DNA of 64,000 bases from Exiguobacterium sp. (lineage in GTDB: Bacteria > Bacillota > Bacilli > Exiguobacteriales > Exiguobacteriaceae): positions 124,001-188,000 of the forward strand of contig NZ_JAFIFD010000033.1 in the NCBI RefSeq assembly GCF_020832205.1. The letters are read 5' to 3'. Positions 19,102 to 38,363 of the stretch are shown piece after piece (the stretch's first letter is position 1; each line of letters opens with the position of its first letter). The translations under genes and the position numbers were made by a program. The notes below the pieces were generated by a model. That model was not told the DNA's origin. It worked only from the letters and a program-made list of their open reading frames with translations, and did not search any database.

Positions 19102-19133
19102 TAAAAAAACCATCCCGCGCGAGCGGGATGGTT
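19102..19133 (-). terminator. Terminator after selO
   Basis: ACCATCCCGC/GCGGGATGGT with a GCGA loop. On the minus strand it is followed by a run of seven T. It touches the selO stop codon. Confidence 0.9.
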
Positions 19134-20572: not shown

Positions 20573-20610
20573 AGCGATCCCTCCTTCTTCGCCTCGAGTA
20601 TAGCACAGCC

Positions 20611-20630
20611 GATTCCCTACGTAAGGAATC
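20611..20630. promoter_or_regulatory. Near-perfect palindrome between selO and folC
   Basis: GATTCCCTACGTAAGGAATC matches its own reverse complement at 18 of 20 positions. It sits in the 108-nt divergent region. On the minus strand it is just upstream of an extended -10 box (TGCTATACT, about 20598–20606) for selO. A possible operator; the regulator is unknown. Confidence 0.45.
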
Positions 20631-20680
20631 GCGAATTTTGGTAAGATGGGGAGGAAGTGTACATATAGGAGTGGATGGAG

Positions 20681-21974: not shown

Positions 21975-24900
21975 TTGCGTAAGTTTCTGCACGTACTTAT
22001 CATTGTCGTCATGCTCGGATCAACCGTGCCTCAAACCAGCCACGCGAATACAGACCAGCCTTTATTGAACATCCTTATTTTACGAGATGCATACAGTTCC
22101 TCAAAAATTCTGACCGTCGATCAATACAAAGCGGCAATCGATTCGTATCGAAGCTCGTTAAATCTAGATACGTCAAGACTGAACGTACAGTTTATGACGA
22201 TTAAAGAATTCAACGCCTCCCGTTTCCCAATGAGCGGGGCGTATGACGCTGTCATGATCGGGAGTAGCCCGTTGTCGACAAAATATCAGACGGGAACAAT
22301 TGGACGTAGCACCAATCACGATACGACCCTTCTGTTCAACGATTTGACTGCCCTCAAAGTCGATGAGCTGTTCAACACCATCGTCCGTGTCGGCTTACCG
22401 CTTTACTTGCACGAAGATGCCGCTACGGGCGGCCCGCAATTGAAGCGGCTCGCCTCTTATGCGACCTATTCGAATGTGAAATTATTCCCGAAAGAGACGA
22501 ATAAAAACATCGATCAAGAAATGGCGCAACAACTCAATAAAGTGTCGAGTGTCCGCCCACGATTAAAGACGACGAACGTCACGTATAATCAACAACCGCT
22601 TGTGAATAATACGATCACGGTGCGAAACGACGTTCGGTCCCCAATCAATTTCATATACAATCTGGCGGCGCAACCGAACGCCTCGACGATCGTCGAACTG
22701 TATATCGACTTCGACCATAACGATCGCTTCCAACCGCAAGAGAAAGTCGTCGAGCAAGCGGCCAAACTCTCTGGCACAATCGACTTCACATTATCTCGCC
22801 CGACGTTCAGTGGTCCAAAGAACTGGATGCTCGTTGTAAAAGACACGATCACAGGACGAGCCGACTATAAAAAAGGAAGTTTCGTCTACTTGGACCAACA
22901 AGTACAAGCGAACATTTTACAACTAACGGCAGGGACGAGCACGAACGGACAAATCTCGCGAGACTTGTCGGACATGCTCGTCGACCCGGCCGGAAACTAT
23001 GCGTTTAAACTGACGAACGGGAACACCGACAGCTTCGGTAAGGGGTTGTACGACGCCGCGCTCAAGGCGAACGACTACGACATGTTGATCTTCGGCTTCC
23101 AAGACTCGTATAACGTCTCAGGGAGCATGAGTGAGACCGCGACGAATAAAGTGAAACGGTTCAGTGAGACCGGACAAGGGGTTATGTTGACGCATGACAC
23201 GATTTTCCGAACGAACAGTGCGGATGCGCCGACATCAGAGTGGGAGCGTCAGTTCGTTCACCAAGATCCTGCCTTGAACGTTTCAGGTCAACGGACGTAT
23301 ACGAATATGGGCTTCGGTGCACCGGAACAAACGTCACGTGCGATCAAAGTGCAAGACGGGATTTTCACGAACTATCCGTTCAAGTTGGATGACGCGCCAA
23401 AAAATATTTCAAATACCCATAATCAATATTTCACGCTCGATTTAAATGACCCTGAAGTAACACCTTGGTATAACTTGTACTCTACAGGTGGAAATCGGGT
23501 ATATGGAGACGCGAACAACCATTACTACACGTATACGAAAAATAACTTCACTTACTCGGGTGCCGGGCACACAAATAGCTTCACGCAGTCCGATGAGAAA
23601 AAAATCTTTATCAATACGATGTATCGGGCTTTCATCGGGGCCAACCACAAGCCCTATAACGTCATCGAGTCCGTCAGTGATCAAGTGAATGCGTATTCGA
23701 AAGAAGACATGAAAACAAAGACCCTCGAAGTGACGGCCGGACGTGATGTCCGGATCATGTGGCGGCCGAGCGATTATGATTTCCAAGACCAGTCACTCAC
23801 TTCGACGTTCACGTACAACGGCAAATCGACGACGTTTGAAAACTTACGTAACTACGAAGTGAGAGAGTTCGTCATTCCGGCCGCTGACGTCATCGAAGGG
23901 AAACCGTTATCCGTTTCGATTGAGACGACGGACAAACGGAATGCGAAAGTGACCGATACGTTGACGATCAACGTCAAACGGCCTGAGTCGGTCACAGATC
24001 TCATCAAAGTGACGCGCTCGATTAACCCTTCTACCATATCGCTTTATGAGACAGGGACAATCAAGTATCAAATCGAGTATCCTGAACAGTTCGACCGCCT
24101 ACCGAACCAGTTAGGAGATAAGTTCATCCGCATCAACATGGCGTCATTCACGGAACAGTTGCCGAAAGAACTTGAAGTCGTGGCGATTCGCGACGCGGCA
24201 GGAAATGAGTTGCCCGTCACAAACGCTCAAAAAATTGAGGTCTCGTTCCCGTTAGAACTATATTATTTACGAAATGGCTCGATTAATGTCTTTTTACCAG
24301 AAGAGAGTGGGGACCGCCGTCTTGCGTTTGACGTCGTTGTCCGAGCCATACAACCTTCCGCTTCCATCCTTCAGTTGAAACAAGACGATAACGTCCTCAA
24401 GACGGACATCGAATATTCGAAGAAGCAAGATCATATTTTGGATAAACATAACGACTGGGATAAAGAGACGACCATCACCTCAACGTTCCCAGATCTCTTT
24501 ATCAACATCGGTTCTCCGTTCGCTTATAAGGCGAGGATTCCAGACGTGACGCTACAAATCGGAGCGGAACAAGTCGTCAGTCCGGTCATCACGGATGCGA
24601 AAGGGAACGTGTTTACGAACCCGAACTGGAGAACACTGAAGTGGGAAGTCGTGGGCAACGACGGCTTCGTTCAATTGAGCGGATCGGGAAATAACGCTGT
24701 TATTAAAGGGATCAAGACCGGGCAAGCGAAACTACGCTTAACGATTGAACCAGGAGAAGGACGTCAGGCGATTACAGCTGAATCGATTGTGAAAGTTATC
24801 AGCCCGCCCGAGCAAATCCAAATCAATGCGCAATCGTTATACGTCGGCCAAAAAGTGACGGTTAACCCAAGTGTCATGCCAAGTACGGCACAATACGAGA

Positions 24901-25700
24901 CAGTGCGCTATGAAACCGTATCAGGTGACAGCGTCTCGTTCGTTCAAAAAGGCGCGACGCTCGAAATTAGCGGACTAAAACCGGGCAATACGGTAATTCG
25001 AGCGACGGTGGACGCTGGTGATGTGTTCAGCAACCTGAATGTAAGCATGCCGTCCACGACATTCACCGTAAACGTTTTAGCCCCTTCATTGACACAGACG
25101 CCGGAACAACTCGACCTATGGGTGTGGGATAGCCTTGACGCTGAGAAGCGTGTGAACGACACGGCCTTGATTCAAATTGTATCAAACCCGGAAGTCGGAA
25201 AAGAGACGACGTTGATTGGAACAGTACCCGCTGCGTTGACGGTGACGAAAACTGAATCTGGATACACGGTTCGTGCCAACCACGGGCATGGATCGAATGG
25301 GATTGCGACTGCAATCTCGTTACAGACCACCTTTGTCGAAACGGCACTTAAGAACGTTATATCCAATCCGACGATGATTCGTGTAAATGAGTATCCGAAT
25401 CAAGTGTTGGCACAAGATGTGACAATTAATATCGGGGAGGGGGAAGCACCTAGAAACCCATCCCTCCAGTTCTGGCCGACCACCTCGACATGGCGAGACT
25501 ATCGATTGAACGTATTGTCAGGTGAGGCGTTTGTGAAAGTGAACGGATCTGGGAAACAGCTCGTTCCAATCAAGCCGGGCATCGCGAAAGTCCAAGTGTA
25601 CACGACGCTTCCGAGCGGCAGAACGTTCGTCCCTGTCACCGACACGTTCTATGTCCGCGTCATCGAGACGTCTGGGGAGAGTAAAGATGATCGCTATTGA
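21975..25700 (+). CDS. Large secreted protein with Ig-like domains, candidate pilus tip protein
   Basis: 1241 residues with a clear Sec signal peptide: MRKFLHVLIIVVMLGSTVPQ, then cleavage near SHA|NT. The start is TTG with a strong AGGAGG site. The first half (to about residue 560) has an alternating alpha/beta character and segments such as GVMLTHDTIF and NTHNQYFTLDL, resembling DUF5057-type secreted proteins; this is a tentative match. The second half is beta-rich, with several Ig/Big_2-like modules (VQLSGSGNNAVIKGIKTGQAKLRLT, QINAQSLYVGQKVTVNPSVMPS). There is no LPXTG motif or C-terminal anchor. Next to minor pilin genes, it could be the Gram-positive analogue of the PilY1 tip adhesin; that is inference. 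Base composition is less GC-rich than its neighbours. Confidence 0.7.
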   Translation: MRKFLHVLIIVVMLGSTVPQTSHANTDQPLLNILILRDAYSSSKILTVDQYKAAIDSYRSSLNLDTSRLNVQFMTIKEFNASRFPMSGAYDAVMIGSSPLSTKYQTGTIGRSTNHDTTLLFNDLTALKVDELFNTIVRVGLPLYLHEDAATGGPQLKRLASYATYSNVKLFPKETNKNIDQEMAQQLNKVSSVRPRLKTTNVTYNQQPLVNNTITVRNDVRSPINFIYNLAAQPNASTIVELYIDFDHNDRFQPQEKVVEQAAKLSGTIDFTLSRPTFSGPKNWMLVVKDTITGRADYKKGSFVYLDQQVQANILQLTAGTSTNGQISRDLSDMLVDPAGNYAFKLTNGNTDSFGKGLYDAALKANDYDMLIFGFQDSYNVSGSMSETATNKVKRFSETGQGVMLTHDTIFRTNSADAPTSEWERQFVHQDPALNVSGQRTYTNMGFGAPEQTSRAIKVQDGIFTNYPFKLDDAPKNISNTHNQYFTLDLNDPEVTPWYNLYSTGGNRVYGDANNHYYTYTKNNFTYSGAGHTNSFTQSDEKKIFINTMYRAFIGANHKPYNVIESVSDQVNAYSKEDMKTKTLEVTAGRDVRIMWRPSDYDFQDQSLTSTFTYNGKSTTFENLRNYEVREFVIPAADVIEGKPLSVSIETTDKRNAKVTDTLTINVKRPESVTDLIKVTRSINPSTISLYETGTIKYQIEYPEQFDRLPNQLGDKFIRINMASFTEQLPKELEVVAIRDAAGNELPVTNAQKIEVSFPLELYYLRNGSINVFLPEESGDRRLAFDVVVRAIQPSASILQLKQDDNVLKTDIEYSKKQDHILDKHNDWDKETTITSTFPDLFINIGSPFAYKARIPDVTLQIGAEQVVSPVITDAKGNVFTNPNWRTLKWEVVGNDGFVQLSGSGNNAVIKGIKTGQAKLRLTIEPGEGRQAITAESIVKVISPPEQIQINAQSLYVGQKVTVNPSVMPSTAQYETVRYETVSGDSVSFVQKGATLEISGLKPGNTVIRATVDAGDVFSNLNVSMPSTTFTVNVLAPSLTQTPEQLDLWVWDSLDAEKRVNDTALIQIVSNPEVGKETTLIGTVPAALTVTKTESGYTVRANHGHGSNGIATAISLQTTFVETALKNVISNPTMIRVNEYPNQVLAQDVTINIGEGEAPRNPSLQFWPTTSTWRDYRLNVLSGEAFVKVNGSGKQLVPIKPGIAKVQVYTTLPSGRTFVPVTDTFYVRVIETSGESKDDRY

Positions 25701-25721
25701 TCCAGGAAGGTTGGAAATCAA

Positions 25722-26363
25722 TTGAAACGAAAATGGATGCTGTTTGCGTTAGTGGTCGTTGTTTTACTTGGTCTATACGTTTGGAACATAGCGACAGTCG
25801 ATCTCAACTCCCTTGAAGGTAACGAATTACAAGAAGCCATTGCTTCGAAACGCGATTTGACTACGGAAGACGTTCACCGGCTTCAACAGCGAGGCGAGTG
25901 GGAAGCGGTTGAACTCGCGATTCAGTCAGAGAAAGTCAAGCCGACGCCGGAGCTATTCCTAGAAGCGTTACAACTTGGAACGAGCGAGGTGGTTCGGACC
26001 TACTTGAATCATGAGGCGAACCCGTTCGCAGAAGTGAACGGTGAGCCGTTGATGGCAAGAGTATACGGCGAGAACGCCGATGCCGAGAAATGGAAAGTCG
26101 TACATGAAGAAGTACGCGATGATCGGCTGCTCGTACTCGCAGCCGATGCGCTTGACTTGGACGCCGTTACTTCATTACTTGATGCAGATGCGGACATTCC
26201 GATACAAGCGAAAGAATCGATTTTATATCAAGCGGTTCGACATAATCATGTGACGCTCATCGAACGGTTAATCGCGAACGGGGCGCTATGGACGTCGACA
26301 CACGAACAGTTGGCCCGTGATTTTCGATCAGATGCCGTCCTGAATTGGATGAATCAACGTTAA
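25722..26363 (+). CDS. Membrane-anchored ankyrin-like protein
   Basis: 213 residues, TTG start preceded by AGGAAGG. One N-terminal transmembrane anchor (MLFALVVVVLLGLYVW), then an extracytoplasmic domain of helix pairs that resembles degenerate ankyrin repeats (LLVLAADALDLDAVTSLLDADADI, ILYQAVRHNHVTLIERLIANGA). It probably follows the large secreted protein on one message, 21 nt apart. Probably an interaction module of the pilus or its tip protein; no enzyme motif. Confidence 0.7.
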   Translation: MKRKWMLFALVVVVLLGLYVWNIATVDLNSLEGNELQEAIASKRDLTTEDVHRLQQRGEWEAVELAIQSEKVKPTPELFLEALQLGTSEVVRTYLNHEANPFAEVNGEPLMARVYGENADAEKWKVVHEEVRDDRLLVLAADALDLDAVTSLLDADADIPIQAKESILYQAVRHNHVTLIERLIANGALWTSTHEQLARDFRSDAVLNWMNQR

Positions 26364-26365
26364 AA

Positions 26366-26399
26366 AAGACCCGCGCTCAGTCGGTTGAGCGCGGGTCTT
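26366..26399. terminator. Bidirectional terminator between converging pilus-locus units
   Basis: AAGACCCGCGCTCA pairs perfectly with TGAGCGCGGGTCTT across a 6-nt loop. It is preceded by an A-run, which ends minus-strand transcripts as a T-run, and lies between the two converging gene sets. Confidence 0.9.
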
Positions 26400-26405
26400 A
26401 GCTGT

Positions 26406-28061
26406 CTATTGAAGTTGGACTGGTTGGCTGACGAAAAATTGAAGCTGATTGGTAACAGGCAACGTGTTCAATTGATTAAAGACCGCATCGTTATACGTCA
26501 ATTGGAGTCGAGAATGCTCAGGCGCTTGCTCGGGAACGTTTTGCTCAAAGTACTGAGTCGCCGAAAGTCCTTTCGCCTCTGGGTAACGGCCACGGAAGAC
26601 GTTCACGTCGAGCGGACCTCGACTATACAGTCCACCTTTTATTTGGAGCTCCGACCCCACCGCATACACTTGCGTCTTTTCTAAGGAGTCACTATATAAA
26701 AAGGCTTGGAGGGACGTCGAACCTGTTTCAAACTCGTTAATCCGATTCAGTAAGATTTTTCCTTTTGAAAGAAGGACGAGCGAGTTGAGGTCATTTTCAT
26801 TGAGTGGACGAATGTTTGCACGATCAATCACGCTATCACCGAGCACATAGACGGTAGATTCAAACGAGACGTTTCCTTGAATCGTCAAGTCACCGTTTAC
26901 GATGAGCGGCCGATCGATTGAAATATGGTTAAGTGAATCAATCGTGAGGTCGCCGTCAAACAGGAGCGGATTCTCGTTTTTCGCAATTGACTCGGTAATC
27001 ACCATCGCGCTTCCCGTCAAAGAAGGCGGTAGCGTCACGATAGTCGGATTGGTCAAACGGTCATAGAGCCGTTTTGCCAAATAAGGACTCGGACGTTCGA
27101 TAATGGTTGAGCCATCGTCACTGATGACACGTTCTGTCTCGAACACGAGGTTCGTGCGAGGAAGTGTCGACTGTTTGAAAAGTGTAGCTTCGACCGTGTT
27201 CGTGTATGGTAATTTTTGAGACAGTCGCCGGTTCACGAACTCGATAATAGAATAATCAAATTGGAACGGTGAGAATTGGCTCGTGACCGGTCCGGCGTCT
27301 GGAAACTCGTTCGCGACGCTGTTTCCGGTTGTGAAATAGTTCGGCTGACGACACACATTGCAGGAGGAAAGGTCCGGCACGTCGATTCGTCCATCTAAAT
27401 AAAAGCGGCTTGTGGACAAGTTTTGGAGTTGCTTTGCCTCGCCGTTCAATTGGTAGTTGGCAGGGCGCGTCAACGTGAACGGACCACCCGAGTAAATATT
27501 CCCTTTCACGGTGGGCATACCATTGACGGCTAACTGCTGGTCGGAACCGAGCACGTAGTATAAGAAAGAGGGCAACGCCGTCAAATAGAGATCTTGTGTG
27601 TACTCGACGGATAAGCGTGGCTGCTCGGGGTTCATCTGGCGGCTCGCGATGACATTCACTTGCAAAATCTTTGTGAAAGGAGCTGTCTCAAGCAGATTTG
27701 CGGCTTCGTCTTCTTTAAGACGAATCGAGTAGGTGATAGTACTGTCGCTCGTTTCAGCTAACGATTCAAATGGCGAATTCACTGCGAGCACGTCTTGAAT
27801 CGCGCTATCGAACGCGGCCTCTGACACCATGTGCTCAGGTACGGCTTGTGCGTCATGGAGTGGGAATTTGTTGCGAACGTCCGCCGCAATCAAGTTGAGG
27901 GCGCTTTTCGCATCCTCGTTTAACTGTGTGTCTTCGGTTCGGATGACGGTCAACTTGTTCGTGACGAGGTTGACTTGCATCGCGGCGAGTGACAGCACCG
28001 CGAGTGCTGCCATCGTCACGAGGACAAGGACGAGCACGTATCCTTCTTCACGTTTTTGCAT
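26406..28061 (-). CDS. PilX-like pilus assembly protein
   Basis: 551 residues. The N-terminus QKREEGYVLVLVLVTMAALAV is a single hydrophobic helix like the PilX N-domain or a non-canonical type IV pilin stem, without the standard G|FTLVE site. A long extracellular part follows with beta-helix-like turns (SIDRPLIVNGDLTIQGNVSFESTVYVLGDSVI), a pattern seen in polymer-forming or shape-determining modules, and one Cys pair (SCNVC). AAAGGAGG precedes the ATG. Third gene of the minus-strand minor pilin set. Confidence 0.72.
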   Translation of the reverse strand: MQKREEGYVLVLVLVTMAALAVLSLAAMQVNLVTNKLTVIRTEDTQLNEDAKSALNLIAADVRNKFPLHDAQAVPEHMVSEAAFDSAIQDVLAVNSPFESLAETSDSTITYSIRLKEDEAANLLETAPFTKILQVNVIASRQMNPEQPRLSVEYTQDLYLTALPSFLYYVLGSDQQLAVNGMPTVKGNIYSGGPFTLTRPANYQLNGEAKQLQNLSTSRFYLDGRIDVPDLSSCNVCRQPNYFTTGNSVANEFPDAGPVTSQFSPFQFDYSIIEFVNRRLSQKLPYTNTVEATLFKQSTLPRTNLVFETERVISDDGSTIIERPSPYLAKRLYDRLTNPTIVTLPPSLTGSAMVITESIAKNENPLLFDGDLTIDSLNHISIDRPLIVNGDLTIQGNVSFESTVYVLGDSVIDRANIRPLNENDLNSLVLLSKGKILLNRINEFETGSTSLQAFLYSDSLEKTQVYAVGSELQIKGGLYSRGPLDVNVFRGRYPEAKGLSATQYFEQNVPEQAPEHSRLQLTYNDAVFNQLNTLPVTNQLQFFVSQPVQLQ

Positions 28062-28079
28062 GAGGAGGACCTCCTTTCT

Positions 28080-28643
28080 TTAGAATGGGATAGAACTTTT
28101 AAACGTCTTCGCTGATTCAGGATTAGTAGCGAGCGATAACCGCATCTCGATTTCAAGTAAGCCACTTGTCATATAACTCGGACGACGCTTGTCATAAGTT
28201 GGATCGATAAGTTGAATTGAGATTGCTTCAAGTACGATGTTTGGATTGCTCGGTTCATATGACTCGTTTGATAGGTTGAGTGGGATGGCTTCATAGCCGG
28301 CCTCACGATAAATCATGCCTGATTCAGCTATATTTGGGTCTGACAGGCGATGGAATTGAAACGTGTCATCGATTTGAGTGACCGCATCGAATTGACTTCG
28401 GTTCACCTCCGAGAGGATGGATGAGACCAAGTAGTCCGCCTCACTACGGAGCTCACTTGTTTCATTCGTCAAGCGGAATCCGAGCGTGCCTGAGATGAAG
28501 GCCGTTATGATGACGCCGCTCAAGATGGAGGCAACGACGACTGTCACAAGCAATTCGACTAAAGTGAACCCGTTTGATTCTTTACTTAACGTTTTCGCTT
28601 TCTGGGACAGCCGTTTCAGGGAACGGCTCACGTAACGTCGCAT
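28080..28643 (-). CDS. PilW-like minor prepilin
   Basis: 187 residues. A type IV prepilin with an unusually long leader of 25 residues, then G|FTLVELLVTVVVAS, with Glu at +5 and a hydrophobic stem helix. The remainder is a small globular domain (QFDAVTQIDDTFQFHRLSD). AAAGGAG stands 8 nt before the ATG at 28643, so the long leader appears real even though it makes a 62-nt overlap with the gene upstream. Confidence 0.8.
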   Translation of the reverse strand: MRRYVSRSLKRLSQKAKTLSKESNGFTLVELLVTVVVASILSGVIITAFISGTLGFRLTNETSELRSEADYLVSSILSEVNRSQFDAVTQIDDTFQFHRLSDPNIAESGMIYREAGYEAIPLNLSNESYEPSNPNIVLEAISIQLIDPTYDKRRPSYMTSGLLEIEMRLSLATNPESAKTFKSSIPF

Positions 28644-29034
28644 TCGAGATCACTCCTTTCAATCGGACGGGGGAGGACATTGTGTCTGTCGTGACAGATA
28701 CTTCAAGCTCAATCGTATGACCGGATTGGGTGGGGCCGATCTCTGTCACGTCTACATTGAAAGATTGTCCGTTGATCTCCGCACAAAACGGACAAGGCCC
28801 GCTCGGTGTCAGCGTCGTAAGTGAGAGCGCTTCTTCGAGCGAAGAGGCTCTTCGATCTAACGTATGTAACGTATTCTGTGCGACTTGATTGGCAATCGTA
28901 CGATTCAAATTATCATTCGTCGTTTTCAAGCTTTGGCTAAATATATTTAACAAGGAGAAAGAGACAATTGATAGAATAACAATCGAGACGAGTACTTCGA
29001 CGAGCGTAAAACCTTGTTCAGAACGCTTCAACAC
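28582..29034 (-). CDS. PilV-like minor prepilin
   Basis: 150 residues. Short leader MLKRSEQG, then FTLVEVLVSIVILSIV, a class III (prepilin) signal processed by PilD. The globular part has a CPFC pair that could form a disulphide. The start is GTG with AAGGAGG just before it (a TTG one codon later is an alternative). First gene of the minus-strand set pilV–pilW–pilX, divergent from the pilus operon. Confidence 0.82.
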   Translation of the reverse strand: MLKRSEQGFTLVEVLVSIVILSIVSFSLLNIFSQSLKTTNDNLNRTIANQVAQNTLHTLDRRASSLEEALSLTTLTPSGPCPFCAEINGQSFNVDVTEIGPTQSGHTIELEVSVTTDTMSSPVRLKGVISNATLREPFPETAVPESENVK

Positions 29035-29101
29035 GTTGACCTCCTTTTCAAAAAAAGTAAAACTGTAGGGAAAAACAGTCTAATTCCATGATTTAATTGT
29101 T

Positions 29102-29127
29102 ATTTTCTGTACAATGCATATTATACT
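29102..29127. promoter_or_regulatory. Divergent promoter region of the pilus locus
   Basis: An AT-rich 158-nt region between the minor pilins (minus) and the vanW-like gene (plus). On the plus strand TATACT (29122–29127) and TACAAT (29110–29115) are -10 candidates. On the minus strand TATAAT overlaps at 29119–29124. -35 boxes are weak on both strands, suggesting activator control or an alternative sigma factor. Confidence 0.45.
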
Positions 29128-29192
29128 AAAGTTACAGTGATTTCGGATAGTCCATCGAAAGTCTCATGGATTCACAACTAGGGGGAATTGGA

Positions 29193-30419
29193 ATGAAGCG
29201 ATATGGGATGCACTTTTTCATCCTGGCATGTCTCGTACTGCTCGTATCGTTGCCGACGATCGGGCTCGTCAACTATTTGGACGTGGCCGCGAAGACGAGT
29301 TCTACATATAAAGACACGCGTGTCGCCGGCATCGACGTGTCGGGGATGACGAAAGAAGAGGCGGTCGTCCGACTCGACAACGCCGTCAAAGATTTCAACA
29401 ATACGCCGTTCACCGTCGCGATGGTCGACGGGACGGCGCTCGAGGTCGGGAAAGATGTCGTCACGTTCAACGTCGACGGCACACTCGACGCCATCACCGA
29501 ACCGGGCGATTATCCGCTCGCCGTAGCGCTCGATGAGGAGCGGCTCACACCGTACCTCGACAATCAGCCGGTGACGATGACGATGGTGACCGGTCCGCTC
29601 ACATCATCGGCATCTAAGCTCGATTCGAACGTCGCACTTGAGACGATCGCCGAAGAGAACGAAGTTGTCACCACGGTGACGATTAGTCCGACACCGGCGA
29701 TGCGTTCGGCGCTCGAACGGATGAACGGATATGAGATGAACGCGGGCGACATGTTCAGCCTAAAAGCGTTCGGGGACGACTTTGACGCACTCACGACGAT
29801 CGGCCAGTCGCTTTATAAACTGTTCGCAGCGACCCCGTTCAAGATTTTAGAGCGCGTCCCGCACGAGACGCTCCCGAGTGATGTCGAGCTCGGCTACGAC
29901 GTCTTAGTCGACGAGCGGTCGAACTTCGCCGTTCAAAACACGGAACAGACGGCATATGCCCTCATCGTCTTGAACGAAGGGAACACGATGACCGTGCAAT
30001 TGCTCGGGAAAGCGTTCGAAGCGGCGTACGAGTCGCGCGTCGAACAAGTCGTGAGCGTACCGTATCAAAACGTCGTCCGTTTCAGCCCGTCGCTCCCGGC
30101 CGGCAGCTCGTCTGTGACGCAATCCGGTCAAGCGGGTGAGTCCGGGAAGCTGTACCGCGTCCGCGTGACCGAAGCCGGCGAGACACTCGAGTTGCTCGGT
30201 TTCGACTTCTATGAACCGGTCCCTGAGATCGTGACGAAAAGTTCAGTCCCGCTTCCGCCGCCAGAGCCGGTCGAGCCGGTCATTCCAACTTTTCCGGATG
30301 AATTACTGGAAGATGACCCGTTCGGTGACGATGTAGAGAATGACGGATTGTATGAATTTGAAGAAGAACCGCCGGTATTCGAAACCGTTCCGGAAACAAG
30401 CGAGGAGGCAGTCGGATGA
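29193..30419 (+). CDS. VanW-like membrane-anchored protein of the pilus operon
   Basis: 408 residues. N-terminal membrane anchor (FFILACLVLLVSLPTIGLV). A domain around residues 40–90 (VAGIDVSGMTKEEAVVRL) resembles the peptidoglycan-binding module that often precedes VanW. A VanW-like domain follows (MNAGDMFSLKAF, ILERVPHETLPSDVELGYD, NFAVQNTEQTAYALIV). The end is a Pro/Glu-rich acidic tail of about 60 residues. AGGGGGA is spaced for the ATG at 29193; the ATG at 29166 has no ribosome site. First gene of the main pilus operon, so it may help anchor or pass the pilus through peptidoglycan (inference). Confidence 0.75.
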   Translation: MKRYGMHFFILACLVLLVSLPTIGLVNYLDVAAKTSSTYKDTRVAGIDVSGMTKEEAVVRLDNAVKDFNNTPFTVAMVDGTALEVGKDVVTFNVDGTLDAITEPGDYPLAVALDEERLTPYLDNQPVTMTMVTGPLTSSASKLDSNVALETIAEENEVVTTVTISPTPAMRSALERMNGYEMNAGDMFSLKAFGDDFDALTTIGQSLYKLFAATPFKILERVPHETLPSDVELGYDVLVDERSNFAVQNTEQTAYALIVLNEGNTMTVQLLGKAFEAAYESRVEQVVSVPYQNVVRFSPSLPAGSSSVTQSGQAGESGKLYRVRVTEAGETLELLGFDFYEPVPEIVTKSSVPLPPPEPVEPVIPTFPDELLEDDPFGDDVENDGLYEFEEEPPVFETVPETSEEAVG

Positions 30420-30697
30420 TTGGATATTTGATTTTGCTCGCCTTCTGGGTGCTTGCCACGCTGACGCTGTTCGCCTTGTCGGTCCCGTACGTACGGAAGC
30501 GTGAGACGAAGCTGTTGCTCGCTCTCCTCGTGGCCGTGCTCTCGTTCGGGGTGTACACGATGTACATGGAATCTCTCGAACGGTCGTGGTGGGCTTGGCT
30601 CGTCCTCGCCCTCGGAATCGCGGGCGGCGCCGCCTTGAGCGTCTTCATCGAACGACGAGACGTCGCCCAGGAGGTACCTCAGAGGATGGTGAAGTAA
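30416..30697 (+). CDS. Small three-helix membrane protein of the pilus operon
   Basis: 93 residues with three hydrophobic segments (YLILLAFWVLATLTLFAL, LLLALLVAVLSFGVYTMYM, WWAWLVLALGIAGGAALSVF) and a short polar tail. Not recognised. The ATG overlaps the stop of the vanW-like gene, and pilB starts 1 nt after its stop, so it is translated with the pilus genes. Confidence 0.75.
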   Translation: MIGYLILLAFWVLATLTLFALSVPYVRKRETKLLLALLVAVLSFGVYTMYMESLERSWWAWLVLALGIAGGAALSVFIERRDVAQEVPQRMVK

Positions 30698-30698
30698 G

Positions 30699-32357
30699 GT
30701 GAGACGAACGAAGAAACGATTAGGGGAAATGTTGATTGAGTCGGGCATGATTACGACGGCCCAGCTCGATGAGGCACTCGCCCAAAAACGGCGCGGGGAA
30801 AAACTTGGTGATACGCTCATGCGGCTCAACTATTTGACGGAGACGCAGTTGATTCAAGTGCTCCACGAACAATTGAACGTGCCGATCATCGCGTTATACG
30901 CACAAGACATCAACGTGACCGTGACAAAACTTGTGCCAAAGGCGATCGCCCAAAAGCACGACATCATGCCGATCGAATTACAGGGGAACACGCTGTTCGT
31001 AGCAACGGCGGATCCCCTTGATTTGATTGCGATCGACGATGTTCGCCTGCAAACCGGGATGAACATCGAAGTTGGGATCGCCACGCGCGAACAGATTCGC
31101 AAGACGATCAGCCGCTATTACGAAATGGACGCCTCGCTCATTGAGATTTTAAAAGACGAAGCGCCCGAGATCGAACGCCAAGAGACGGCATCGCGTGACG
31201 ACGCACCGGTCATCCGGCTCGTCAACCAGCTGTTCTTGAGCGCGATCGACCAACGCGCCTCAGACATCCACTTCGACCCGCACGAGAAGCAGCTCCACGT
31301 CCGCTTCCGGGTCGACGGGGACCTTCGCACCGAGGCGGTGTACCCGAAGAAGATTCAAAGCGTCATGCTGACGCGGCTGAAAGTCATGAGTAACTTAGAC
31401 ATTACCGAGAGCCGCTTACCGCAAGACGGACGCATCAAATATACGCTTCGCGACCGGCCGTACGACTTCCGCGTCTCGACGCTCCCGACGATGTACGGCG
31501 AGAAAATCGTCATCCGGGTGCTCGACTCGTCAGAAGGGCTGACCGATTTGACGAAGCTCGGCTTCGGCGAGCACAACGAACTCGTCTACCGCGACATGCT
31601 CAAACGGCCGAACGGGATCATCTTGATCACGGGGCCGACGGGGTCGGGGAAATCATCGACGCTGTACGCGTCGTTGAAAGAACTGAACGATGAATCGAAA
31701 AACATCATCACAGTCGAGGACCCGGTCGAGTATCAGCTTGACGGCATCAACCAAGTGCAAGTGAACGCAAAAGTCGGTCTCACGTTCGCCTCAGGGCTGC
31801 GCTCGATTCTCCGCCAAGACCCGAACATCGTCATGGTCGGGGAGATCCGCGACACGGAGACGGCTGAGATCGCGATCCGCGCCTCGCTCACCGGTCACTT
31901 GGTGCTCTCGACGCTCCATACGAACTCGGCGATCAGCTCGATCACCCGACTCGTCGATATGGGGGTTGAACCGTTCCTCGTCGCCGCTTCGACGTCCGGC
32001 CTTGTCGCCCAGCGGCTCGTGCGCCGCGTCTGCCGCGACTGCGGTCACGAACAGCCTGTCTCGAAACGCGAGCAAGAACTGTTCGCGAACGAAGGGGTGG
32101 CGATCGAGCACGTCGTCCGCGGCAGCGGCTGCGCGTCGTGCAACTTTACCGGTTATCGGGGACGCCTAGCCATCCACGAAGTCGTACCGATTGATGAAGG
32201 GTTACGCCGGATGATCATGAACCAGGCGACCGAGGCCGAGATGGTCGACTACGCGAAACAAAACGGGGCGAGGTTTTTACTCGCCGACGGGTTAGAGAAA
32301 GTCGCGTCAGGATTGACGACGACCGAGGAGATCCTTAGAACAGTCATAACGGAGTGA
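30699..32357 (+). CDS. pilB: Type IV pilus extension ATPase PilB
   Basis: 552 residues, GTG start. A hexameric secretion ATPase that powers pilin polymerisation from the cytosolic side. N-terminal MshE/T2SSE domain (LGEMLIESGMITTAQLDEAL), Walker A GPTGSGKSS, Walker B LRQDPNIVMVGEIRD, His box STLHTNSA. The tetracysteine zinc motif CRDCGHEQ … CASC, typical of PilB/GspE and absent from PilT, separates the two. GGAGG lies upstream within orf93. Confidence 0.96.
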   Translation: MRRTKKRLGEMLIESGMITTAQLDEALAQKRRGEKLGDTLMRLNYLTETQLIQVLHEQLNVPIIALYAQDINVTVTKLVPKAIAQKHDIMPIELQGNTLFVATADPLDLIAIDDVRLQTGMNIEVGIATREQIRKTISRYYEMDASLIEILKDEAPEIERQETASRDDAPVIRLVNQLFLSAIDQRASDIHFDPHEKQLHVRFRVDGDLRTEAVYPKKIQSVMLTRLKVMSNLDITESRLPQDGRIKYTLRDRPYDFRVSTLPTMYGEKIVIRVLDSSEGLTDLTKLGFGEHNELVYRDMLKRPNGIILITGPTGSGKSSTLYASLKELNDESKNIITVEDPVEYQLDGINQVQVNAKVGLTFASGLRSILRQDPNIVMVGEIRDTETAEIAIRASLTGHLVLSTLHTNSAISSITRLVDMGVEPFLVAASTSGLVAQRLVRRVCRDCGHEQPVSKREQELFANEGVAIEHVVRGSGCASCNFTGYRGRLAIHEVVPIDEGLRRMIMNQATEAEMVDYAKQNGARFLLADGLEKVASGLTTTEEILRTVITE

Positions 32358-32361
32358 TGAG

Positions 32362-33399
32362 ATGATCCATCAATCGATTGAAGTGATATTGACGAAAGCG
32401 GTCGAACAGCGCGCCTCGGACATTCATCTGACCGCGGGTTCGCCGCCGATTTTTCGCATCGACGGCAGCCTCGTCACGATGGGCGAGGAGAAAGTGTTGC
32501 CGAATCACATCGAAAGTTATTTAAAAGAGATCATGACCGAGGAGATGCGGGGACGCTTAGAAGTCCAGCGTGACCTCGACTTCTCGTTCGGTGTCCCGCG
32601 CGTGTCGCGTTTTCGCGTCAATGCCTACTACCAGCGGGGAACGGTCGCCATCGCTTTCCGTTCCATTTCCGGGGAAATCCCGACGCTAAACGAGCTCGAT
32701 TTGCCGCCGGTATTGAAACGGCTCATCGAGAAACCGCACGGCCTCATCCTCGTGACCGGGCCGACGGGATCGGGGAAATCGACGACGCTCGCCGCGATGA
32801 TCCATGAAATCAACCGGACGCAGCGTAAACGGATCATCACGCTCGAAGACCCGATCGAGTATTTGCATTCCCATAACCAGAGCATCGTCGACCAGCGTGA
32901 GATCGGTTCGGACGTCATGAAGTTCGTGAACGGTCTCCGGGCCGCGCTACGACAAGACCCGGACGTCATTTTGCTCGGTGAGATGCGTGACCTCGAGACG
33001 ATCTCGACGGCGATGACAGCGGCCGAGACGGGACACCTCGTCATGGCGACGCTCCATACGTCGAGCGCGATGTCGACCGTCAGCCGCATCATCGACGCGT
33101 TTCCGGCCGAGCAGCAAGACCAAATCCGGACGCAACTCGCGAACGTGTTGTTAGGCGTCGTCAGCCAGCGGTTGTTCCCGCGTGTCGACGTCCCGAAAGG
33201 ACGCGTCGCCGCGATGGAGATCATGCTCGGGAACGCGGCCGTCGCCAACTTGATCCGCAACGAAAAAGAGTTCCAGCTCCCGACTGTCATCCAGACGAAC
33301 CGGCAGAGCGGGATGCAATCGATGGACGCATCTATCGAGCAACTTGTCCGGCAAGGCATCATTAACCCGAACGCCGTGCCGAACGAAGAAATGAGGTGA
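32362..33399 (+). CDS. pilT: Type IV pilus retraction ATPase PilT
   Basis: 345 residues. Powers pilin depolymerisation, and so twitching or DNA uptake. Starts with ASDIHLTAGSPPIFRIDG, Walker A GPTGSGKST, Walker B LRQDPDVILLGEMRD, and MATLHTSSAMSTVSRIID. The retraction signature AIRNLIRE appears as the variant AVANLIRN. No zinc motif. Its presence argues for a dynamic, retractable pilus rather than a competence pseudopilus only. Confidence 0.95.
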   Translation: MIHQSIEVILTKAVEQRASDIHLTAGSPPIFRIDGSLVTMGEEKVLPNHIESYLKEIMTEEMRGRLEVQRDLDFSFGVPRVSRFRVNAYYQRGTVAIAFRSISGEIPTLNELDLPPVLKRLIEKPHGLILVTGPTGSGKSTTLAAMIHEINRTQRKRIITLEDPIEYLHSHNQSIVDQREIGSDVMKFVNGLRAALRQDPDVILLGEMRDLETISTAMTAAETGHLVMATLHTSSAMSTVSRIIDAFPAEQQDQIRTQLANVLLGVVSQRLFPRVDVPKGRVAAMEIMLGNAAVANLIRNEKEFQLPTVIQTNRQSGMQSMDASIEQLVRQGIINPNAVPNEEMR

Positions 33400-33403
33400 C
33401 CGT

Positions 33404-34621
33404 ATGGCCATATTCCAATATGAAGGCAAGCTGTTGAACGGACGTCGTAAAAAAGGACGCATCACGGCCGTCTCGATTCGCGAGGCGAAAGAGAAGCTCC
33501 GCGAAGAGTCGATTCTCGTCACCGAACTGTCTGAACTCGAGTCGACCGGACTGAACACGGAGATCAACCTGCTCCCGGAGCGGGTGAAAATCGAACATTT
33601 GATTATGTACGTGCGCCAGTTCGCGACGCTCATCCGAGCCGGCGTGCCGATCGTCCGGGCGACGTCGATTTTGCGCGTCCAGACCGAATCAAAAGTGCTC
33701 AAAAAAACGCTCAGCCAAGTCGAGGACGATCTTCGAGAAGGGATCGCCTATTCCGAGGCGATCAAAAAGCATCCGCGCGTCTTCTCGAACTTCTTCAGCT
33801 CGATGGCGCTAGCGGGCGAGGCGAGCGGGAACTTAGAGGAAGCGCTCGATCAAATCGGGCTGCAGCTTCAAAAGCAGTACGACGTGAAACGAAAAGTCAT
33901 CTCGGCGTTGACGTATCCGCTCGTCGTCTCGATCGTTGCCATCGGTGTCGTCGCTTTCCTCATGGTGAACGTCGTGCCGACGTTCGCGAGCATCTTCGGA
34001 CAGCTCGGCGGCGAATTGCCGCTCATCACCCGTCTCGTCGTCGCCGTCTCCGATTTTGTCGCCGCCTACTGGTGGCTCATCTTCGGGGTGGCGCTCCTCG
34101 GCATACTGATTTTCACGTGGATGTTGAAGCGGGATAAAGAACGATTCATCATCGATGGTCTGTTGTTGAAGCTGCCGATCTTTGGGCCAATCGTCCTGAA
34201 GTCGCAAATCGCGTTACTGACGCGCAGTCTCGCCGTCTTGCTGCAAGCGGCCGTACCGATCTTGTCGGCGATCGAGATCACGGAAAAGATCGTCTCGAAC
34301 CGTGTCATCCGTAAAGGACTCGGTGAGGCGCGCAACAGTATGGCGCAAGGGATTCCGCTCCACGAGCCGCTCATGCGCAACAACAACTTCCCGCCGCTCA
34401 TGACCCAAATGATCGCGGTCGGCGAGGAGAGCGGGGATTTGGACTCGATGTTGAACGAAGTCGCCGAGTTTTATGAGACTGAAGTCGAGACGACGACGGA
34501 CCGGTTGAAGTCAATCATTGAGCCGCTCCTGATTGTCGTGCTCGCAAGCATCGTCGGCGTCATCGTCATCGCCATCGTCGTCCCGATGTTCCAAATTTAT
34601 GGGGATATCCAAAATCAGTAG
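33404..34621 (+). CDS. pilC: Type IV pilus inner-membrane platform protein PilC
   Basis: 405 residues, T2SF family. Two homologous cytosolic helical domains (YVRQFATLIRAGVPIVRA and LTRSLAVLLQAAVPILSA) and three membrane segments (near 165–190, 210–235 and 375–400). The typical GEESGDLDSML motif is present. Works as the rotor that PilB and PilT turn. 4 nt after pilT, with GAGGTGA as ribosome site. Confidence 0.95.
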   Translation: MAIFQYEGKLLNGRRKKGRITAVSIREAKEKLREESILVTELSELESTGLNTEINLLPERVKIEHLIMYVRQFATLIRAGVPIVRATSILRVQTESKVLKKTLSQVEDDLREGIAYSEAIKKHPRVFSNFFSSMALAGEASGNLEEALDQIGLQLQKQYDVKRKVISALTYPLVVSIVAIGVVAFLMVNVVPTFASIFGQLGGELPLITRLVVAVSDFVAAYWWLIFGVALLGILIFTWMLKRDKERFIIDGLLLKLPIFGPIVLKSQIALLTRSLAVLLQAAVPILSAIEITEKIVSNRVIRKGLGEARNSMAQGIPLHEPLMRNNNFPPLMTQMIAVGEESGDLDSMLNEVAEFYETEVETTTDRLKSIIEPLLIVVLASIVGVIVIAIVVPMFQIYGDIQNQ

Positions 34622-34630
34622 AAAATTCTT

Positions 34631-34648
34631 AGTTTATGCACATAAACT
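34631..34648. repeat. Perfect inverted repeat in the pilC–pilA gap
   Basis: AGTTTATG, CA, CATAAACT: 8-bp arms without a T-run. An operator or weak transcription pause are both possible. Confidence 0.5.
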
Positions 34649-34650
34649 AC

Positions 34651-34679
34651 TTTTCAACACCAAATTTTGAATGTATAGT
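34651..34679 (+). promoter_or_regulatory. Candidate pilA promoter
   Basis: TTTTCA at 34651–34656 and TATAGT at 34674–34679, spacer 17 nt, in the 140-nt AT-rich gap. A separate pilA promoter would explain higher expression of the major pilin. Confidence 0.5.
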
Positions 34680-34761
34680 AAAATTGTTCTACTTGTTCTA
34701 GGTCTTAGGTAATGAATACAGCACAATACACAGCACAACACACAAAAGGGGAGAATCAGTC

Positions 34762-35208
34762 ATGTTGGATAAAATGAAAATGATTTGGCAAGATGCGAAA
34801 CAATTGAAAGATGAGCGCGGCCTCACACTCGTCGAGTTACTCGTCGTCGTCGTAATTTTAGGAATTATTGCAGCCATCGCTGTTGTCGCGATTGGTGGAA
34901 TTATTGAGAACTCGAAGAAGGATGCGATGGTTGCGGATGCGAAACAGATGGTGAGTGCGGCGAAGTTACATACAGCATCGAACCCTGAAGCTGCAAGTCT
35001 AGATTTTACAAAAGAAGTTGGACAAAGTTATATTTCCAAGCTTAACGATCCTTTTGGAGATGAATACTCTAAAGCACTTGTAACTATTACACCAGATGGC
35101 AACAAATACAGCTATTCTGTTCAACTCGTTGGGAAAAAAGCAATTGGTGCTTCTACACCTGTGGCAGAATCAGCAATTAATAAAGATGCAATCGTAGACA
35201 CCGAATAA
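34762..35208 (+). CDS. pilA: Major type IV prepilin PilA
   Basis: 148 residues. A 20-residue positively charged leader ends in DERG|LTLVELLVVVVILGIIAAIAVVAI, with Glu at +5 and the long hydrophobic stem helix. PilD should cleave after Gly20. The globular part (from about residue 50) is small and lacks cysteines. From about codon 75 onward the DNA becomes much more AT-rich, and codon use changes compared with the first half and with the rest of the operon. This suggests that the surface-exposed half was exchanged or diversified. Preceded by its own promoter candidate and followed by a terminator-like hairpin. Confidence 0.93.
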   Translation: MLDKMKMIWQDAKQLKDERGLTLVELLVVVVILGIIAAIAVVAIGGIIENSKKDAMVADAKQMVSAAKLHTASNPEAASLDFTKEVGQSYISKLNDPFGDEYSKALVTITPDGNKYSYSVQLVGKKAIGASTPVAESAINKDAIVDTE

Positions 35209-35213
35209 TCCCT

Positions 35214-35260
35214 CCGGCTGGCGCTGGGCACTCGCTCAGCCTAGCCGGTTTTCTATTTTT
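35214..35260 (+). terminator. Hairpin after pilA
   Basis: CCGGCT (35214–35219) with AGCCGG (35243–35248) and an inner TGGGC/GCTCA stem, then TTTTCTATTTTT. Probably separates a strong pilA transcript from pilD and pilMNO. Confidence 0.8.
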
Positions 35261-35289
35261 GGCATATACTTACAGAAGGAGTGACCAAA

Positions 35290-36042
35290 TTGGTTGACCT
35301 TATTGGACTCATTTACAGCATCGTGCTCGGAGCAATCATCACTTCGTTCACGAACGTCGTCGGGCTCCGCATGCCACAGAAGCAATCGATTGTGACGCCA
35401 CGGTCGCACTGCCCGTCTTGCGGCCACGTCTTGTCAGCATGGGAACTCGTTCCCGTGTTCGGCTACTTGTTCCTCCGTGGCAAATGCCGCGGCTGTGGCG
35501 GACGGATCGCGCCGACGTATCCGCTGTTCGAACTGCTCGGGGCGATCGGCTACGGTTATAGTTTTTGGCTGTACGGCTTCTCGGGGACGACGCTGCTCGC
35601 GTTCGTTTTCTTGTCGACACTCCTCGCTTTGGCGATGTCGGATTTGTCGACGATGCTCGTGCCGAACGTCATCTTGCTCTATACGGCACCGGTCCTGCTC
35701 GCACTCGCCTATCTGTCAGGGGCGACGTGGTGGGGGCCGCTCGCCGGGGCGTTGTTAGGATTTTCAGTCCTCGCCACCGTTTTTTTCGTCTCAAAAGGGG
35801 GACTTGGGGCCGGCGATGTCAAACTATTTACAGTGATCGGACTCGTGCTCGGACCGCGTGACGTGCTCGTCGCGTTGTTCCTCGCGAGCTTGATCGGTGC
35901 CGTCGTCGGTCTCGCGTTGATCGGGCTGAAACGGATCGGCCGCAAACAGCCGATCCCGTTCGTCCCGTCAATCGCACTCGGGACGATGCTGACGTTTTGG
36001 TTCAGCGAACGCTTTTTTGATTGGTATTTTGATTTATTGTAG
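35290..36042 (+). CDS. pilD: Prepilin peptidase / N-methyltransferase PilD
   Basis: About 250 residues. A membrane aspartic protease that cleaves prepilin leaders and methylates the new N-terminus. The methylase domain zinc cysteines are C41, C44, C66 and C69 (CPSC … CRGC). Catalytic aspartates are D118 in MSDLSTM and D176 in GAGDVKLF. Eight hydrophobic segments. AAGGAG suits the TTG at 35290; a GTG at 35281 is too close to it. Equivalent in position to B. subtilis comC downstream of folC. Confidence 0.93.
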   Translation: MVDLIGLIYSIVLGAIITSFTNVVGLRMPQKQSIVTPRSHCPSCGHVLSAWELVPVFGYLFLRGKCRGCGGRIAPTYPLFELLGAIGYGYSFWLYGFSGTTLLAFVFLSTLLALAMSDLSTMLVPNVILLYTAPVLLALAYLSGATWWGPLAGALLGFSVLATVFFVSKGGLGAGDVKLFTVIGLVLGPRDVLVALFLASLIGAVVGLALIGLKRIGRKQPIPFVPSIALGTMLTFWFSERFFDWYFDLL

Positions 36043-36054
36043 GGGGAAACTAGC

Positions 36055-37626
36055 ATGAGCCGGGCTATAGAGAAAGGAACGGTCGCGTACTTCTCGTTCG
36101 ATGCGCTCAGCATCCACGGGGCCGTGATCAAACAAGGCGTCTTCAAACGGAGCGCTTCCGTCCAGTTGGCGAAAAACGCCTATGCCGGAGGACGGATCCA
36201 AGACGAGAACGCGTTCGGCCTCGCTTTCGACGAGTTGTGCCGAAAATTGAAAGTACGTAAAGGGATGGTCTGTGCCGTCGACATGGCCGAGACGGAAGTG
36301 TTGTCTCGAAAAGTCGACATCCCGTCGAACATCCCGAAAGACGAGATCCGCGGTTATTTGTTCATGGAGATCGGCAGTTCGATCATCTTGCCGTTCGACG
36401 ACGTCGCCTTCGACTACGAGGTGCTCGGCGAAACGGAGACGAAGACCGAAGTCATGCTGCACGCCGTCTCGGTCGAGTTGACGAAAGCGATTCGCGGTTA
36501 TATGAAAAAACGCGGGTTCGTCTTGAAGAAGATCGTTCCGCGCCCGGTCGCTGTCGCTAACGGTGTGGCCCGCCTTGAGACGCTCGACCCGCTCAAGTCG
36601 ACGCTTCTTTGGCACGTGACGCCGTTCGCGCACCAGTTGCTCGTCCTTGAGGAAGGACAGGTCCGCTTCATCCGCGCCATCGAGACCGACCTCTCGTACC
36701 GCTCGGACACGACAGACGGCGGGGTTACATACACGTTCAACGGTTCGGATGAGACGCTCGCGAGCCAGACCGACGACTGGTTGAACGAGCTGTCACGCTT
36801 CCTCGACTTCTACCGCTACTCGCTCCGCACGGACGGTCGCCCGATCGACGAGCTCCTCGTCTCCGGGACGATCCCGGAACTCGATGACCTCGTCCAGACA
36901 ATCGAGGCGGAAGCGATGGTGCCGGTCAAACGGAGCGATGACCCGCTCCCGTTGTCACACGCGACGCCGCTGTCGCACCAGATGTTGCCGCTCCTCGGGA
37001 TGGCGACACTCGACCGTGACCGTGACGCGAACTTCATTAATTCGACCGACGTCACACTCCGCTGGCCGATCGTCGCGAGTCTCGTCTCCCTCCTTATCGG
37101 TGGAGGGCTCGCCGGCTTCTTGTACTATGAAGTGCAAGGGCTCGAACGGCAAGAAGCGCAAGTGAACGAACAGTTGCAGCTCGTGCGCATTTATCAGACG
37201 GAGCAAGTGAATTCGAAAGGGCAGCAAGTGCTGTCGCTCGAACAGACGGTGACGTCGCTTGCGAACGAAGAGAAACAAGCGGTGCCGGCGCTTCGTGCGC
37301 TCACCGAGCAATTGCCGCCGACCGGGTACGTCTTGACGTACAACTACGCCGACGGCTCGCTCATGAGCGTCCGTGCCCAGTTCGAGACGTTGCCGGACTT
37401 GAACGCGTTCCAACGCGCGCTCTTGACCGACCCGCGGTTTGAGAACGTCAAACTGCTCGGCGTCACGACCGAGACGAAAGCCGACACAGAGACGGACACG
37501 GACGAACCGACTCCTCTGACCGACGAGCCGCTCCCGCGTTACATCGGCGAATTCACGTTCACGTTCGTTGACGCCGAAGAGCCAGAGACCGAAGCGACGA
37601 CCGATGAGGAGGTGGTGAGCCAATGA
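36055..37626 (+). CDS. pilM: PilM–PilN fusion protein
   Basis: 523 residues. Residues 1–320 are an actin-like PilM domain (TVAYFSFDALSIHGAVIKQG, CAVDMAETEVLSRKVDIPSNIPKDEI, LLWHVTPFAHQLLVLEEGQ, LLVSGTIPELDDLVQ). A single transmembrane helix follows at about 338–360 and then a coiled coil (GLERQEAQVNEQLQLVRIY). The PilN-type ferredoxin-like periplasmic domain ends in an acidic linker. In separate systems, the N-terminal NLLP motif of PilN binds the PilM cleft; here the junction reads ANFINSTDVTLRW. The layout recalls GspL of type II secretion. The fused protein would sit between PilC/PilB and PilO. Confidence 0.88.
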   Translation: MSRAIEKGTVAYFSFDALSIHGAVIKQGVFKRSASVQLAKNAYAGGRIQDENAFGLAFDELCRKLKVRKGMVCAVDMAETEVLSRKVDIPSNIPKDEIRGYLFMEIGSSIILPFDDVAFDYEVLGETETKTEVMLHAVSVELTKAIRGYMKKRGFVLKKIVPRPVAVANGVARLETLDPLKSTLLWHVTPFAHQLLVLEEGQVRFIRAIETDLSYRSDTTDGGVTYTFNGSDETLASQTDDWLNELSRFLDFYRYSLRTDGRPIDELLVSGTIPELDDLVQTIEAEAMVPVKRSDDPLPLSHATPLSHQMLPLLGMATLDRDRDANFINSTDVTLRWPIVASLVSLLIGGGLAGFLYYEVQGLERQEAQVNEQLQLVRIYQTEQVNSKGQQVLSLEQTVTSLANEEKQAVPALRALTEQLPPTGYVLTYNYADGSLMSVRAQFETLPDLNAFQRALLTDPRFENVKLLGVTTETKADTETDTDEPTPLTDEPLPRYIGEFTFTFVDAEEPETEATTDEEVVSQ

Positions 37627-38330
37627 AACGCTCGACGATTTATTTGTTGTTCACACTGTGCCTGTTCACGGCCATCGCCGTCCCGGCTTATTTCGGCTAC
37701 ACGTACGTGATGAAACAAAGTGACGTGAAAGCACTCGAGCGCGAACTGTCGCTTGAACAGACGAAGCTCGAGCTTATGCGGCAAGAAGGCCGCGCCGTCG
37801 ATGTCGCCGATTCGCAGCGACTCCAGACGCGCGTGCCGGCCGAGCCTGCGTTAGACACCGTCGTCGAGGCGCTGTCACAGGCGAGCCAGCTTTCAAGCGT
37901 CAACGTGACGAGCATCGCTTTCGCGGACGGAATCCTCGCCGAGTCGGAAGTGCCCGAGACGATCGAACCGATTGACCCGGAGGACGTCAGTGCGACGTCT
38001 GAACCGGCGAGACCGGTCGACATCACTCCGGTGAACGCGTCCTCGGTGCGGGCGACCGTTTCGCTCCAAGCCGAGACGTATGACGCGCTCGTCCTCTTCC
38101 TCGAGTCGGTCGAGTCGATGAACCGGATCCACATCTTGCGGACCGTTCAATTCACTGGACCGGCCGAGACGGGACCGAACACGACGGACGTGATCGCGCC
38201 GCTCGACTTCACCGTCGAACTCGACGCCTTCTATCGTCCGGACTTGACGCAACTCATCGAAGACCGGTTCGTGCCGACGCAAACGTTCCCGCGAAAAGAC
38301 ATCCCGGTGTACGATTATACTTCGCCATAA
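37623..38330 (+). CDS. pilO: PilO-like alignment protein
   Basis: 235 residues. One N-terminal transmembrane helix (IYLLFTLCLFTAIAVPAYFGYTYV), a coiled coil (VKALERELSLEQTKLELMRQ), then a ferredoxin-like domain (VRATVSLQAETYDALVLFLESVESMNRIHILRTVQFTG). Overlaps pilMN by 4 nt. The function is assigned from topology and from its place right after PilN, as PilO proteins are poorly conserved in sequence. Last gene of the pilus locus. Confidence 0.85.
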   Translation: MKRSTIYLLFTLCLFTAIAVPAYFGYTYVMKQSDVKALERELSLEQTKLELMRQEGRAVDVADSQRLQTRVPAEPALDTVVEALSQASQLSSVNVTSIAFADGILAESEVPETIEPIDPEDVSATSEPARPVDITPVNASSVRATVSLQAETYDALVLFLESVESMNRIHILRTVQFTGPAETGPNTTDVIAPLDFTVELDAFYRPDLTQLIEDRFVPTQTFPRKDIPVYDYTSP

Positions 38331-38334
38331 CGAG

Positions 38335-38363
38335 ACGTCCCTTCAAAAAGAAGGGGCGTTTTT
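38335..38363 (+). terminator. Terminator ending the pilus operon
   Basis: ACGTCCCTTC with GAAGGGGCGT (one G·U), loop AAAAA, then T-run. Confidence 0.88.

Follow-up and report, generated by a model that had tools for sequence, protein, structure and literature searches.

A type IVa pilus locus with variable surface parts at the folC-maf site of Exiguobacterium

The stretch of Exiguobacterium sp. DNA analyzed here (64,000 nucleotides, referred to as the window) carries a complete type IV pilus locus with an intact PilT, as the original prediction had it for this Gram-positive organism. The pilus genes proper extend from 26406 to 38330 and comprise pilB, pilT, pilC, pilA, pilD, a fused pilM-N, pilO, three minor pilins, and a VanW-G5 gene. 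Judged from their sequences, they very probably give rise to a functional type IVa pilus, for which adhesion and retraction-driven movement are the most likely uses. The locus type is not new, as a 2011 survey already lists a pil operon for Exiguobacterium sibiricum (Imam et al. 2011; PMC3244431). The more interesting additions are that the surface parts of the pilus appear to behave as modules and that the orphan comC of other Bacilli can be related to this locus.

Profile searches, together with structural and ortholog evidence for the 551-residue pilin, PilO, and PilN, bore out that the named pilus components occur together at one locus. Its position between folC and maf was also correctly called. 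The span had been given as 21975 to 38330, of which the first two genes, encoding a DUF5057 protein and an ankyrin-like protein, fall outside the pilus genes proper. The three minor-pilin genes (26406 to 29034) are on the minus strand, opposed to the rest of the locus, and the plus strand reads vanW-G5, small membrane protein, pilB, pilT, pilC, pilA, pilD, pilM-N, and pilO. Only 136 bp separate pilO from maf; no gene lies in this gap, and spoIIB is absent from it. The hairpin after pilO is suggestive by position only, the hairpin count of the region being no higher than in shuffled sequences. No Rfam element was found in 18000 to 42000, and hence no known c-di-GMP riboswitch is present there. 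A gene for a SelO protein adenylyltransferase (19133 to 20695, minus strand) adjoins folC.

Table 1. Pilus locus and adjoining features, in window positions
Feature	Position	Strand	Evidence or remarks
Secreted DUF5057 protein, 1241 aa, beside minor pilins	21975..25700	+	PF16480 32 bits (cut-off 27.9)
Ankyrin-like protein	25722-26363		Profile search
Large minor pilin, 551 aa, PilX/GspK type without Glu5	26406..28061	-	N-terminus EEGYVLVLVLVTMAALAVL and predicted fold
Minor pilin, 187 aa, GFTLVELL prepilin motif, PilW/GspJ-like by position	28080..28643	-	N_methyl PF07963 28.3 bits (cut-off 21.2)
Minor pilin, 150 aa, PilV/GspI/ComGE-like	28582..29034	-	N_methyl 35 bits
VanW-G5 membrane/wall protein, first gene of motor operon; probable start MKRYG at 29193	29193..30419	+	G5 31 bits (above cut-off); VanW 25.2 bits (just below)
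Small membrane protein, 93 aa	30416..30697	+	Genus-specific; kept in 8 Exiguobacterium loci, without a match in other families
PilB extension ATPase, N-terminal MshEN c-di-GMP-type domain and zinc tetracysteine	30699..32357	+	PF00437 (T2SSE) 463 bits, PF05157 71 bits, NF053729 63.8 bits
PilT retraction ATPase	32362..33399	+	TIGR01420 469 bits (cut-off 319); solved PilT E 3e-102
PilC membrane platform	33404..34621	+	PF00482 (T2SSF) E 4.7e-60
PilA major pilin; N-terminus (mature aa 1-56) conserved, head hypervariable	34762..35208	+	N_methyl 29.7 bits
PilD/ComC prepilin peptidase	35281..36042	+	PF06750 (A24_N) and PF01478 (A24)
PilM-PilN fusion, 523 aa	36055..37626	+	PilM_2 36 bits; TM segment and PilN-like C-terminus seen directly
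PilO	37623..38330	+	Profile built with Bacilli orthologs matches solved PilO 3jc8, E 1.7e-6
Terminator-like hairpin, operon end	38339..38356	+	Pattern scan

PilB scored slightly below the cut-off of TIGR02538 (627 bits against 675; E 2.8e-188) and was closest to a solved PilB (E 2.8e-150), with a further match to the MshE structure 5htl (E 6.5e-23). The Walker A (GPTGSGKSS) and Walker B (MVGEIRD) motifs were seen directly in its translation, and pattern searches located the Asp box (EDPVE), the His box (GHLVLSTLH), and two CxxC pairs. Its MshEN domain is above cut-off, with the last Q of motif 1 replaced by K and one G of motif 2 by N; given these altered residues, binding of c-di-GMP may be weak. 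GGDEF domains number 23 in the genome. The Walker A, Asp box, Walker B, and His box motifs of PilT (GPTGSGKS, TLEDPIE, VILLGEMRD, and GHLVMATLHT) are intact and match those of other Bacilli, and its C-terminal motif reads AVANLIRNEK, the counterpart in some relatives being AIRNLIREGK. At the sequence level, both ATPases thus retain their catalytic motifs, from which we infer retraction, twitching, and adhesion. The sequences therefore do not bear out inactive ATPases, which would have counted against the original prediction. Moreover, pilB, pilT, and pilC are under strong purifying selection (dN/dS 0.03 to 0.07).

The locus encodes both prepilins with class III leaders and a peptidase with an A24_N domain. 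A search of the whole genome (2.78 Mb) returned a single A24 peptidase, PilD of the pil locus. The proposed check for separate comG genes turned up an operon of their own away from the pil locus, running from comGA to comGG-like genes, and one ComEC is encoded in the genome. With a single A24 peptidase, PilD would have to process the pilins of both systems and serve both pili. The same combination of one pil and one com operon is recorded for E. sibiricum 255-15, of the same or a sister genus, in the 2011 survey, where all Bacillales examined have a single com operon along with a pilD/comC homologue (PMC3244431).

The fusion of pilM and pilN was found in all Exiguobacterium loci examined, and the genes are split in most other families, whose separate PilN orthologs matched PF05137 in two of the three tested. 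The PilM-N of the window shares 97% identity with its E. alkaliphilum counterpart and 84 to 90% with those of seven other species. PilO alone gave no Pfam match.

PilX/GspK-type pilins are without Glu5. The 551-residue pilin was assigned to this type from its N-terminus and fold; it has no Pfam match, and comparison of its sequence with solved structures gave nothing useful. Its AlphaFold model (mean pLDDT 68.5) combines a long pilin helix with a beta-solenoid head, and the sole significant Foldseek match was ComZ of Thermus (6qvi; E 7e-6). In a second structural comparison, ComZ aligned across 340 residues with a Z of 11.6, and the value for ice-binding solenoids was ∼13. Like ComZ of Thermus thermophilus, the model, which is of moderate confidence, shows a pilin frame with an inserted beta-solenoid, and the match extends over most of the protein. 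The differences are that a sequence match is absent, that the overall TM-score is low (0.25), and that the head is acidic (35 K/R versus 52 D/E). ComZ binds DNA and has been argued to be at the pilus tip (PMC6561018). The modeled pilin likely sits at the pilus tip as well. Because the head is acidic, DNA binding by it is not indicated, and the slightly better fit to ice-binding proteins means that the fold tells little about the ligand. The 150-residue pilin has matches to PilV TIGR02523 (E 4.6e-9) and to ComGE (E 1.8e-9) that stay under the cut-offs of these models.

A profile search of the whole genome found no secretin, in agreement with the original prediction. Secretins are required in diderms only and do not define type IVa pili in monoderms, so that the missing secretin is no bar to type IVa membership. 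A candidate for the wall-crossing component in its place is the VanW-G5 protein, as gene linkage suggests: in a comparison set of 38 loci from other families, taken as 20-kb pieces, it is encoded immediately upstream of pilB in 15. The genome contains no second VanW match, and the predicted structure of the protein is poor (mean pLDDT 48.8). Among the listed titles and abstracts on VanW or G5 domains and this type of pilus, none mentioned a component of this kind. PRC-barrel proteins are encoded directly upstream of vanW in the pil loci of two other families (L039:7209-7940 and L050:7093-7866). The DUF5057 protein is a possible accessory surface protein, with homologues adjoining the minor pilins in four other-family loci and in the sister genus. 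The pil locus of another family has a gene for a GAF-GGDEF diguanylate cyclase between folC and the minor pilins (L029:3039-4751).

In the working model, PilD would trim the prepilins, PilM-N and PilO would align the machine, and PilB would drive PilA into a fiber on the PilC platform, possibly in response to c-di-GMP through its MshEN domain. PilT would retract this fiber. The three minor pilins would form the tip, with the 551-residue pilin bearing the ComZ-like head, and the VanW-G5 protein may anchor the machine in the wall as a stand-in for the secretin. DNA uptake would fall mainly to the distinct comG pilus, which would depend on the PilD of the pil locus, and the PilA head and the tip operon would be exchanged between species.

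Two other uses of the machinery were weighed against this model. A type II-like pseudopilus or another secretion system would fit the best score of PilC, which is to GspF, the weak matches of the minor pilins to Gsp models, and the large secreted DUF5057 protein encoded close by. Type II secretion goes with a secretin and without PilT, whereas here the genome is without secretin and PilT is present at 469 bits; the nearest solved relative of PilB is a PilB, and PilM/N/O are of the pilus type, which makes a secretion system highly improbable. A pilus mainly for DNA uptake, with the tip pilin as a ComZ-like DNA receptor, would account for the resemblance to the DNA-binding tip pilin of Thermus (PMC6561018) and for the presence of ComEC. 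We consider this distinctly unlikely, since comG genes form a separate operon in the genome, the tip pilin has an acidic head, and its solenoid matches ice-binding proteins slightly better. Nor is the locus itself of the ComG kind (comGA to comGG without PilT and PilM/N/O), as it has both PilT and PilM/N/O. Among the uses originally predicted for the pilus, twitching and adhesion are kept, and DNA uptake is more plausibly a task of the comG operon.

The conserved motor contrasts with its surface parts. Comparison of 19 Exiguobacterium genomes, one per species, revealed 19 distinct PilA proteins, in which identity is 96% over the first 56 residues and 36 to 42% over the remainder (two alignments), a comparison in which pairs are non-independent and recency cannot be gauged. 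When the window is set against E. alkaliphilum, identity is 97 to 98% for PilB, PilC, and PilD and 68% for PilA. DNA identity falls from 94 to 99% to 41 to 56% within pilA and is back at 95 to 97% at pilD. The identity of the PilA head showed no significant correlation with that of pilC, rho being 0.13 both in the genus (p 0.10) and in the sister genus (p 0.24). Across nine loci the minor pilins likewise showed little relation to motor identity (rho 0.06, 0.33, and 0.06), whereas pilD, pilM-N, vanW, and maf track the motor (rho 0.71 to 0.85), with pilO at 0.54. This suggests that the PilA head and the minor-pilin operon are exchanged surface modules with sharp borders and little tie to species kinship.

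Variation of the PilA head and tip could also come from fast evolution in place, given that surface pilins change fast under phage or host pressure. No silent pilin cassettes were found, there being one PilA match per genome (the two of G081 are halves of one gene), and this absence also speaks for change in place. We nevertheless regard this explanation as unlikely. Near relatives differ (pilC 97% identical at the nucleotide level, PilA head 48%) and more distant ones match (86% and 87%). Loci L011 and L012 are 42 to 62% identical throughout the tip operon and ∼81 to 96% from vanW onward save pilA, and yet L012 has the tip type of the window despite a motor close to that of L011. The sharp module borders also argue against it, as does dS, which is higher within pilA (1.08) than within pilC (0.58) and pilD (0.15). 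This raised dS, with a dN/dS of 0.16 to 0.26 for PilA, is better explained by import of diverged alleles than by change in place. On balance, we favor the reading that both the PilA head and the three-gene tip operon as a whole have been swapped between species, each on its own, while the motor stayed fixed. The probable route would be transformation, with the comG pilus taking up the DNA and sharing PilD. In the same reading, the orphan comC of many Bacilli would be the last remaining gene of an ancestral pil operon that was otherwise lost, kept by its competence role.

The distribution of the locus bears on the second part of this reading. PilT scored over its cut-off in 170 of the 300 genomes of Bacilli searched and in all 28 of the family. 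The order folC, minor pilins, vanW, pilBTCAD, M, N, O, maf is common to many families; either folC or maf/radC was within the 20-kb piece in 27 of the 38 other-family loci and both in 11, the pieces being too short for many. An open reading frame between pilO and maf, where spoIIB lies in B. subtilis, gave a weak SPOR-domain match in two of the four other-family loci tested. In a sample of 20 loci from genomes without PilT above cut-off, 10, from several families, have a peptidase between folC and maf/radC without other pil genes. Lone peptidases of this kind in Bacilli lacking PilT are seen, for example, in L056-L060, L062, L064, and L065, and a few PilT-less loci retain pilN/pilO-like genes.

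In a PilD tree whose bootstrap had not settled, proteins from comC-only loci of three families cluster among PilDs that belong to pil loci of the respective family (support 96/94, 98/90, and 95/88). Most comC-only proteins of family f14, however, join family f28, a grouping (87/93) that was not starred. The simplest reading of orphan comC is that pil genes were lost repeatedly and the peptidase was kept, which would make it a leftover of a former pil operon. A limited search, which is no proof of absence, found no published account joining comC and folC in such a loss scenario. We propose that the pil locus is old in Bacilli and has been inherited at the folC-maf site. The locus had been described as occupying the comC-spoIIB neighborhood of B. 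subtilis, which is right for the position, but the history looks reversed, with the pil locus widespread at this site and the comC-alone loci appearing as remnants.

A close published counterpart outside the genus is the operon of Paenibacillus thiaminolyticus Mbale, which likewise combines an MshEN pilB, pilT, pilC, pilins, pilD, and PilM/N/O with the absence of a secretin (PMC9765702). That operon is on a predicted mobile element, whereas the Exiguobacterium locus is at the long-standing folC-maf site. Bacillus ComG/ComC belongs to the same filament superfamily, and ComC is a PilD homologue at the same chromosomal site; unlike the pil locus, ComG has one ATPase and is without PilT and PilM/N/O. 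The 2011 survey (Imam et al. 2011; PMC3244431) counted operons and pilins; sharing of the peptidase, past changes at the site, and exchange of alleles are not among the topics of its available part.

Exiguobacterium thus offers a Gram-positive in which extension, retraction, possible control by c-di-GMP, and secretin-free wall crossing can be studied jointly. The distribution of the locus offers a simple explanation for the separation of comC from comG in Bacillus. If pilin heads and tips are indeed swapped, this would indicate selective pressure, for example, from pilus-binding phages.
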